Of a stretch of 64,000 nt of DNA, positions 5,248 through 16,999 are shown one piece after another. Under the pieces are notes generated by a model. The model saw nothing but the letters and a program-made list of their open reading frames with translations. It was not told where the DNA came from and searched no databases. This stretch comes from Methanobacteriota archaeon (GTDB lineage Archaea; Halobacteriota; Methanomicrobia; Methanomicrobiales; Methanoculleaceae), in the NCBI GenBank assembly GCA_016841955.1, contig JAENYE010000002.1, positions 1 through 64,000 on the forward strand, written 5' to 3'. The position numbers and the translations under genes were made by a program. Each line of letters begins with the position of its first letter. Position 1 is the stretch's first letter.

Positions 5248-6515
5248 CCTCCTTCGACGTCTTCAACGTCTATTTTGAACAGATCTACGATCCGACGATG
5301 CACGTCGTCTTCGCATTCGACGGCGAGGCCGACGCCGGGGTCATGAGGGAGGCGACGAAGAGGCTGATCGCGTCCGATCCCTACCTCAGGTCCAGGTACG
5401 CGGAGGTCGACGGCCGGCCCGTCTGGGAGGAGGTCCCGGAAGAACTATGGGAGGGAGCGTTCGGCCTCGTCCCGGCAGGGGAGGTTGAGGACCTGCCCCC
5501 GCCGCCGCTCGACGTCCGCTCCGGGCCGCAGGTGCGGGTCGGCCTCTACCGGAGAGAGGAAGGGGATCTCGTCGCCGTCACCTGCCACCACGGCTTCTGC
5601 GACGCCCACGGTGCCCTCACCCTTGCCCGGGACCTCTTTGCGATCTACCGGGGGATCGTGGAGGACCCGGACTTCCGGCCGGTCCCCCGCGTCCCCTACG
5701 ACCGGAGCACGGACCGGATCATTGCACACTACACCGGAGAGGAGCGAACGCAGGCGCTCGCCGGGGAGGAGCCCTTCGTCGACCGGTGGCGCTTCCCGGT
5801 CGAGCGGACCGGAAGGGGGACGCCCCGGATCGCCTGCCGGACGCTCCCGCCTGAGAGGCTCGGGCTCGCAAAAGCGTTCGGCAGACGGCACGGGGCCACG
5901 GTCAACGACGTCCTCATCGGTTCGTTCTTCCTCGCCCTCCTGAAGATCCGGGGCGACCCTTCGGACCGGGGTGCTCCCCGGTCGATCCTGACCTCGGCCG
6001 ACCTGCGCAGGAGGTACCCCGGGCTCCACGGCGAGTGCCCGCTCACGAACCTCTCCATCGCCTACGAGGTCACCCTCTCTGCCGGAGAGGAAGCCCGGCT
6101 CGAGGATATCATCGACCAGGTGGCGGCGATAACGGCCCGCCGCAAGGCAGGAAGCCTCGGCCTCGCGGCCATCCTCTTCTACGAAGAGATCCTGGCAGGC
6201 GGGATGGCGGCGGTGCGGGCGTTCTACGACGAGATGCTCGGGAGGTACCAAACATCCGGCCTGAAAAACCCGGTCCTCTCCAACATAGGAATCCTCGACC
6301 CCGGCGACTACCTGCCTGTCCCGGGGAAGAACGGTGCAGTGCTCGATCTGAGGGATATCCAGCTCATTCCCTGCCTCTCCTGGCCGTACACGTTTCTGAT
6401 GCTGGCCTCCACCTTCCGCGACCGCCTGACGATCACGACGGCCTACGAGGAAGGACCCTACTCGACGGCCGTCATGGAGCGGTTCCTTGAGTACGTGGAC
6501 GAGTATCTCCCGTGA
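5205..6515 (+). CDS. Condensation-domain / alcohol acetyltransferase-like acyltransferase
   Basis: A 436-residue protein with the fold signature of CoA-dependent acyltransferases and NRPS condensation domains. The active-site motif HHGFCDAHG (HHxxxDxxG) is intact at about residues 128-136. A second conserved region follows near 245 (ATVNDVLIGSFFLALL), and the late GLKNPVLSNIG region matches the DFGWG-like part only loosely. It stands alone, with no carrier-protein domain or NRPS modules, like PapA5 or AATase-type stand-alone enzymes that acylate an alcohol or amine. The substrate is not visible from context. The ATG at 5217 is an alternative start; neither has a clear Shine-Dalgarno sequence. 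Confidence 0.8.
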   Translation: MRKIMSSSPVRRPASSFDVFNVYFEQIYDPTMHVVFAFDGEADAGVMREATKRLIASDPYLRSRYAEVDGRPVWEEVPEELWEGAFGLVPAGEVEDLPPPPLDVRSGPQVRVGLYRREEGDLVAVTCHHGFCDAHGALTLARDLFAIYRGIVEDPDFRPVPRVPYDRSTDRIIAHYTGEERTQALAGEEPFVDRWRFPVERTGRGTPRIACRTLPPERLGLAKAFGRRHGATVNDVLIGSFFLALLKIRGDPSDRGAPRSILTSADLRRRYPGLHGECPLTNLSIAYEVTLSAGEEARLEDIIDQVAAITARRKAGSLGLAAILFYEEILAGGMAAVRAFYDEMLGRYQTSGLKNPVLSNIGILDPGDYLPVPGKNGAVLDLRDIQLIPCLSWPYTFLMLASTFRDRLTITTAYEEGPYSTAVMERFLEYVDEYLP

Positions 6516-15589: not shown

Positions 15590-15683
15590 CGAAAGCTCCT
15601 GTCCGATTACTTCTTCCCATTGCCTTAAAACAGATGGTATACGTGCCGGAACTGCTCTTTCTGCTGCCCGGACCAGCCCCGCC

Positions 15684-15770
15684 TCACGTTAGCGCCTCCA
15701 GCAGCGATTCCGCACACTCCACGCAGGCTCGCTGTCTTTGCAGAATAGCCTCGCTTATCTGGAAAGACAC
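15684..15770 (-). CDS. Possible 28-residue peptide with a C-V-E-C motif, divergent from the radical SAM gene
   Basis: A tiny frame on the minus strand runs from a GTG at 15770 to a TGA at 15684-15686. It ends RACVECAESLLEALT and reads as a polar, helix-forming peptide with two Cys. AGGAGGT abuts the GTG, which is closer than ideal, and a TATA-like stretch lies about 30-40 bases upstream. Its neighbour is a peptide-modifying type of radical SAM enzyme whose relatives are known to sit beside short Cys-containing peptides. That context, not sequence similarity I could confirm, is the reason for listing it. It could be chance. Confidence 0.3.
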   Translation of the reverse strand: MSFQISEAILQRQRACVECAESLLEALT

Positions 15771-15841
15771 ACCTCCTCAGGCCGCAGACTATGATAGCCA
15801 TATGAATAGGTTTTAACATCTTCAAAGAGAACCTCGGTACG

Positions 15842-16999
15842 ATGAAGAGCCCTTTTCACATCATGATCATACCCACGCTCGGTTGTCCGTCCAAGTGCCA
15901 CTACTGCTGGAGTTCTGATGAAGGGTCTCCGAAGATGAGTATCGAGACGGTCCGGGAGATAGCGGAGTGGCTCAAAGACTACCAGTCCGACCAGGTCACC
16001 ATCACCTTCCACGGCGGAGAGCCGCTCCTCGCCGGTGCGGACTTTTACCGGCAGGCCCTCCCCATCCTCTCCGAGAGCCTGCACCACCTTTCACCGACGT
16101 TCGCCCTGCAGAGCAACCTCTGGAGGCTCACCCCGGAAATGGCTCAGATATTTGCAGAATACAATATTCCCATCGGCTCCAGCATCGACGGTCCCGAGGA
16201 GATCAACGACCTGCAGAGGGGGAAGGGCTATTTTGAAAAGACCATGCGGGGCTACGAGATCGCAAAAGCGAACGGACTTGAGGTCAGGTTTATCTGCACG
16301 TTCACCTGCAGGTCGGTCGAGCGTAAGGAGGAGATTTTCAACTTCTTCCTGCAGAGCGGGTTCCCACTCAAACTACACCCGGCGCTGCCGTCTCTCCGGA
16401 GCAATGACCCGAAAGAGTGGGCACTCGAGCCGGAGGCCTACGGGGAACTGCTGGTGTACCTCCTCGATAAGTACCTGGAGAACCTGGGCAGGATCGAGGT
16501 CATGAACATCAACGACCTCTGCAGGTGCATCTTTATCCGGCGCGGCACGGTCTGCACGTTCGTTGACTGCATGGGAACCACTCTTGCCGTCGGGCCGGAC
16601 GGGAGCATATACCCATGCTACCGCTTCGTCGGGATGCCTGAGTACGTGATGGGGAACGTCTACGACCGCCCCACACGCGACGACCTCGCCCGATCGGACG
16701 CCTGGAAGCTCATGCACGCGTTCAAGGAGTACGTCGACCGTGAATGCGGAGAATGTCCCCACATCAGGTACTGCCGGGGCGGATGCCCCTACAATGCGAT
16801 AGCGCCCACGAACGGCGAGATCAGGGGCGTCGATCCCCACTGCATCGCCTACAGGCGGATATTCGACGAGATCACCGACCGGCTGAACAACGAGATGTTC
16901 GGAGCCGCGGATATGGAGATGGGCGGGTTCGGCTCGCCGTTCGGGCGGAGGGAAAAGCCGGGGATCATGTCGATCCTGCAGACGATGGCGACGAAATAG
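15842..16999 (+). CDS. Radical SAM / SPASM enzyme, putative peptide modifier
   Basis: A 385-residue enzyme. The radical SAM cluster motif is CPSKCHYC with Cys15, Cys19 and Cys22, followed by TFHGGEPLLAG (the GGEP SAM-binding motif) near residue 58-68. The C-terminal third is a SPASM domain with many Cys: CTFVDCMG, GSIYPCYRF, CGECPHIRYCRGGCP and a last DPHC. This matches anaerobic sulfatase-maturase-like enzymes that modify peptides, and specifically resembles the methanogen group I know as TIGR04083. The precursor peptide is not certain; see the small frame at 15684. It has its own promoter near 15803-15815 and is followed 69 bases later by a DUF998 gene. Confidence 0.9.
   Translation: MKSPFHIMIIPTLGCPSKCHYCWSSDEGSPKMSIETVREIAEWLKDYQSDQVTITFHGGEPLLAGADFYRQALPILSESLHHLSPTFALQSNLWRLTPEMAQIFAEYNIPIGSSIDGPEEINDLQRGKGYFEKTMRGYEIAKANGLEVRFICTFTCRSVERKEEIFNFFLQSGFPLKLHPALPSLRSNDPKEWALEPEAYGELLVYLLDKYLENLGRIEVMNINDLCRCIFIRRGTVCTFVDCMGTTLAVGPDGSIYPCYRFVGMPEYVMGNVYDRPTRDDLARSDAWKLMHAFKEYVDRECGECPHIRYCRGGCPYNAIAPTNGEIRGVDPHCIAYRRIFDEITDRLNNEMFGAADMEMGGFGSPFGRREKPGIMSILQTMATK

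Follow-up and report, generated by a model that had tools for sequence, protein, structure and literature searches.

The window, by which we mean the whole 64,000-nucleotide stretch of archaeal DNA analyzed here (contig JAENYE010000002.1, family Methanoculleaceae), carries on its forward strand, at 15842-16999, an uninterrupted ORF of 385 amino acids. It is a full-length match of the NCBIfam family TIGR04083 (rSAM_pep_methan, "peptide-modifying radical SAM enzyme"), with 715.3 bits against a cut-off of 300 and model positions 1-375 of 376 covered, and both the Radical_SAM and the SPASM models of Pfam pass. The CxxxCxxC site, the SPASM domain and the family membership given in a preliminary description of this DNA are thus borne out. 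Orthologues that are 55-99% identical to the enzyme were found in methanogenic and methanotrophic archaea; going by the closest loci that have names, the window's genome is Methanoculleus-like. It is the single TIGR04083 copy above the cut-off in the window's genome; a second, distant TIGR04083-like radical SAM protein (G000:C3:195225-196337) reaches 136 bits, below the cut-off. The features of the locus are as follows.

15684..15770, reverse strand: 28-residue C-V-E-C frame with a GTG start, rejected as a gene (in-frame stops or absence at orthologue loci).
15802..15841, forward strand: short conserved stretch with a TATA-like sequence, 5' of the enzyme (comparison of Methanoculleus loci).
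15842..16999, forward strand: TIGR04083 radical SAM/SPASM enzyme, 385 amino acids, proposed McrA didehydroaspartate synthase (NCBIfam, Pfam, orthologues).
15884..15907, forward strand: CxxxCxxC (C15, C19, C22), ligands of the SAM [4Fe-4S] cluster (invariant in 36 orthologues).
16553..16843, forward strand: SPASM region with eight invariant Cys residues (238, 243, 259, 302, 305, 311, 315, 334) (36 orthologues, anSMEcpe alignment, fold match).
16850..16852, forward strand: codon of the invariant Tyr337, replaced by TAG in M. wolfeii (orthologue alignment).
16952..16996, forward strand: C-terminal KPGIM helix, with a disordered linker before it (AlphaFold model, alignment).

The nearest solved relative of the enzyme is the anaerobic sulfatase-maturating enzyme (anSME), as judged by both sequence (E 2.5e-29) and structure (TM 0.79 for an AlphaFold model with a pLDDT of 86.6). 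anSME (PDB 4k36-4k39, TIGR03942), which oxidizes one residue inside a large protein, has the same fold and two auxiliary clusters and is about 25% identical to the enzyme, which scores 174 bits against TIGR03942 and stays below its cut-off of 349. The eight Cys residues of the SPASM region would suffice to hold two auxiliary [4Fe-4S] clusters, the number present in anSME. At the position of Asp277 of anSME (YPCD), its catalytic base, the enzyme has the invariant Tyr260 (YPCY), which is in keeping with a different target. Among the 36 orthologues, Gly374 and Met376 of the C-terminal helix are nearly invariant. Within the gap 5' of the enzyme, the 40 bases directly upstream are the sole part kept in most Methanoculleus loci; because of this conservation, and because distant orthologues have TATA-like sequences in the equivalent place, about 30 nt upstream, this stretch is probably the enzyme's own promoter and leader. 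Further 5', a 26-base stretch (15651-15676) has counterparts in several other Methanoculleus loci (L003, L005, L009, and L035), where they lie some 150 nt 3' of the enzyme; this may be a chance likeness to the start of the DUF998 gene.

The flanking genes of 76 orthologues were clustered and their sequences then read, and the neighbors that recur proved to be those of the methyl-coenzyme M reductase (MCR) system; the names of neighboring genes come from this reading, and those of McrA are backed by PDB matches. Spacing between mcrA and the TIGR04083 gene was taken from the coordinates of the TIGR04083 and McrA searches in 391 Halobacteriota genomes. In about 20 genomes of several genera, mcrA was found closely upstream of TIGR04083 on the same strand. 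It lies directly 5', approximately 170-490 nt away, in each of the ten g58 genomes that carry TIGR04083 (G050, G060, G080, G113, G117, G124, G131, G158, G174, and G276), and directly 5' at 140-460 nt in genera g6 (G215, G230, G259, and G289), g8 (G101 and G277), and g13 (G110); two g6 genomes, G155 and G326, have mcrA within 1.4 kb. The gene order mcrBDCGA-TIGR04083 is borne out by sequence in L223 and L225. In L223, the mcr operon is flanked by Mmp10, the McrA methylarginine enzyme, on one side and by TIGR04083 on the other, and a relative of this locus (L224) keeps mmp10-mcrBDCGA without TIGR04083. Mmp10 lies 4-40 nt upstream of TIGR04083 in L064 and L065, AtwA (component A2) is upstream of the enzyme in six loci (L014, L016, L023, L025, L029, and L030), and mtrEDC flanks it in four (L014, L025, L066, and L072). 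One ABC-ATPase cluster (c4) was rejected as a single gene, as it mixes AtwA with ABCE1 (L068 and L069), and these two loci were left out of the AtwA-linked set. In Methanoculleus, including the window's genome, the TIGR04083 gene is unlinked from mcr, which counts against the reading that we prefer below.

The 391 Halobacteriota genomes were searched for TIGR04083 and McrA, both at E <= 1e-60. TIGR04083 was present in 168 of them (167 above the family cut-off), and 159 of these carriers also have McrA. The remaining nine (G125, G140, G238, G297, G320, G340, G349, G372, and G375) come from families of methanogens in which McrA is present in the other members. Counted by McrA, TIGR04083 was detected in 159 of 228 McrA genomes versus 9 of 163 others; since 69 McrA genomes do without it, TIGR04083 appears as a variable part of the MCR system. 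Both linkage to mcr and co-occurrence with McrA, as expected of an MCR-modifying enzyme, were therefore observed. In Methanobacteriota, 123 of 132 genomes carry TIGR04083. Among 14 named controls, it was found in M. acetivorans only; M. jannaschii, the sole member of Methanococcales covered, has McrA and no TIGR04083 above the cut-off, and the family was not found in genomes whose McrA is nearest to that of ANME-1 (3sqg). A near-complete genome of the window's genus (G003, a single 1.98-Mb contig) has two mcrA copies and no TIGR04083. Around TIGR04083, two genomes (G519 and G520; loci L175 and L176) are identical over about 2.1 kb though their McrA proteins differ, which suggests a recent exchange.

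Didehydroaspartate (ddAsp) has been reported in MCR of M. marburgensis, M. barkeri, M. acetivorans, ANME-2c, and ANME-2d (PMC7581889, PMC7058361, PMC8070964, PMC12413448), and its absence has been reported for M. wolfeii, M. shengliensis, and M. formicicus. Enzymes have been assigned to several active-site modifications of MCR (Mmp10, MgmA, YcaO-TfuA, and McmA). The literature searched, which excluded preprints and most subscription papers, gave no enzyme for ddAsp and no paper naming TIGR04083; an earlier identification of the former is possible, and the link of TIGR04083 to MCR is new as far as this search goes.

Genomes were matched to these species by McrA identity to PDB chains. The McrA of G519 is identical at 550 of 550 residues to 3pot, the M. 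marburgensis MCR structure, and its TIGR04083 gene is intact. The McrA of G526 is likewise identical at 550 of 550 residues to 5a8k, the M. wolfeii structure, and here TIGR04083 is stopped by a TAG at the invariant Tyr337. The gene is also intact in G348, whose McrA shows no difference from 1e6y (M. barkeri) across 547 compared residues, and in two other ddAsp-positive organisms, M. acetivorans and Ca. Methanoperedens BLZ2 (L076), the ANME-2d strain of the structure paper. In the ANME-2 locus L026, whose McrA has its best match in ANME-2c (9qm5), mcrA is directly upstream of TIGR04083 and adjoins it. For M. shengliensis McrA (7nkg), no match above 77% identity was obtained among the genomes searched. 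Presence of the gene thus follows ddAsp in a small sample: it is intact in the four named positives, broken in M. wolfeii, and absent from ANME-1-like genomes.

The TAG of M. wolfeii falls just after the last SPASM Cys and cuts off about 38 residues, among them the conserved helix at the C terminus. It is possible that the shortened product is partly active, or that the TAG, one stop in one assembly, is a sequencing error. Lesions of TIGR04083 were seen in two of eight Methanothermobacter-like genomes, so that, taken alone, the agreement in M. wolfeii might have arisen by chance, with a likelihood of about 25% within this group and of roughly 2% (about 3 of 123) across the phylum sample. A case from another strain, G524 (C1:71711-72825; L180), has lost one base of TIGR04083 near position 687 of the gene, which splits it; unless this is a sequencing error, the strain is predicted to have no ddAsp. 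The M. wolfeii match is weak by itself; what gives it weight is that linkage, co-occurrence, and fold agree with it.

A difference at the Asp site between carriers and non-carriers of TIGR04083 was ruled out, as the McrA motif DLQDQC is invariant in both. The presence of the enzyme, and not that of the site, would therefore decide on the modification. Other McrA modifications were considered as the product. M. barkeri, a carrier of the gene, lacks methylglutamine; hydroxytryptophan has been reported for M. formicicus and ANME-2 and not for M. marburgensis or M. barkeri; the enzyme for methylcysteine is McmA. These three, together with the methylhistidine of the gamma chain, were rejected because their distributions mismatch, and among the known variable McrA modifications ddAsp alone matches the TIGR04083 pattern.

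This match bears on the strongest alternative, namely that the enzyme belongs to the MCR system and acts, in a way not seen so far, at a different site of MCR or on one of its partners (McrC, McrD, AtwA, or Mtr). Such a role would fit the linkage, which is with the whole system (mcr, atwA, mtr, and mmp10), as well as the retention of the McrA Asp with or without the enzyme; however, no known variable McrA modification besides ddAsp fits, and we regard another MCR target as rather unlikely, though worth keeping in mind.

It is distinctly improbable that the enzyme serves to mature a small peptide with Cys residues whose gene lies elsewhere in the genome. The annotation of TIGR04083 as peptide-modifying speaks for this, and so do a weaker HMM similarity to RiPP maturases and the SPASM architecture that the enzyme shares with radical SAM maturases of this kind (5wgg, ChlB 9gm3, and PapB). 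Unlike these, the enzyme has no nearby conserved precursor peptide gene, and Pfam detected no leader-binding domain in it. Within 1.2 kb of the 76 orthologues, no small ORF conserved across lineages was found, a search that covers linked ORFs; moreover, about 65-74% identity is retained across orders, and TIGR04083, which is found in mcr operons, hardly occurs outside lineages with McrA. The other small-ORF clusters near the enzyme were discarded, being either shadow frames that accompany larger genes or ORFs limited to particular lineages. An AbrB-like DNA-binding small ORF with two Cys residues lies directly 3' of the enzyme (at about 6170-6350 of the locus) in five loci (L027, L034, L040, L049, and L076) and is limited to these Methanoperedens-type loci. 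Since it is the MCR system and not a small ORF that recurs beside the enzyme, a segment of McrA is more likely to be its substrate than a free peptide. The modified-peptide (RiPP) system proposed in the preliminary description is accordingly not upheld, and the word "peptide" in the name of TIGR04083 is not supported.

That proposal had centered on the 28-residue frame in the gap, with the translation VSFQISEAILQRQRACVECAESLLEALT. The frame is indeed open in the window's genome, with its GTG start, but it does not behave like a gene. The surrounding 11-kb stretch is overlapped by 135 ORFs of at least 25 amino acids, so frames like this one are expected by chance. The ribosome-binding sequence claimed for it, AGGAGGT, ends at 15771, immediately next to the first base of the GTG at 15770, so that the spacing a ribosome-binding site requires is missing. 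Nor is there the conservation that had been suggested as a check. The intergenic DNA of the Methanoculleus locus L003 is 94.9% identical, and an in-frame stop interrupts the frame there (RQ*ACSEY), with C-V-E-C changed to C-S-E-Y; a stop is likewise present in L001. In L002 and L071, no open frame aligns with it, and none of the other orthologue loci has a convincing counterpart. Thus, given these stops or its absence at orthologue loci, the chance that this frame encodes the substrate is negligible.

We consider it quite probable that the enzyme works on MCR as a protein oxidase of the radical SAM/SPASM type, most likely forming ddAsp in McrA. More specifically, and with nearly the same degree of belief, we infer that TIGR04083 is the MCR ddAsp synthase, which desaturates one Asp, and that its loss in single species explains the patchiness of ddAsp. 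This proposal is made because linkage, co-occurrence with McrA, the match between intact or broken genes and phenotype, and the SPASM fold agree. The target would be the invariant Asp of the McrA segment G-Y/F-D-L-Q-D-Q-C-G (Asp450 in M. marburgensis, Asp470 in M. acetivorans). The CxxxCxxC cluster would cleave SAM to give a 5'-deoxyadenosyl radical, which would abstract a single hydrogen from the Asp, either at its side chain or at the alpha carbon; the SPASM clusters would then take up the electron, and loss of a proton would yield the C-alpha=C-beta bond of ddAsp. Two radical SAM modifiers of McrA are already known, Mmp10/MamA for methylarginine and MgmA for methylglutamine, and the former is a direct or near neighbor of TIGR04083 (L064, L065, and L223). 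Both are cobalamin-dependent methylases, whereas Pfam detected no cobalamin domain in the present enzyme, which has SPASM. To our knowledge, desaturation of a protein aspartate by a radical SAM enzyme would be new chemistry.

MCR makes nearly all biological methane. If the proposal is true, it explains why the close relatives M. marburgensis and M. wolfeii differ in ddAsp, and it corrects the assignment of TIGR04083, a family now annotated as peptide-modifying. The role of ddAsp would become testable, and the heterologous production of MCR would gain a part.
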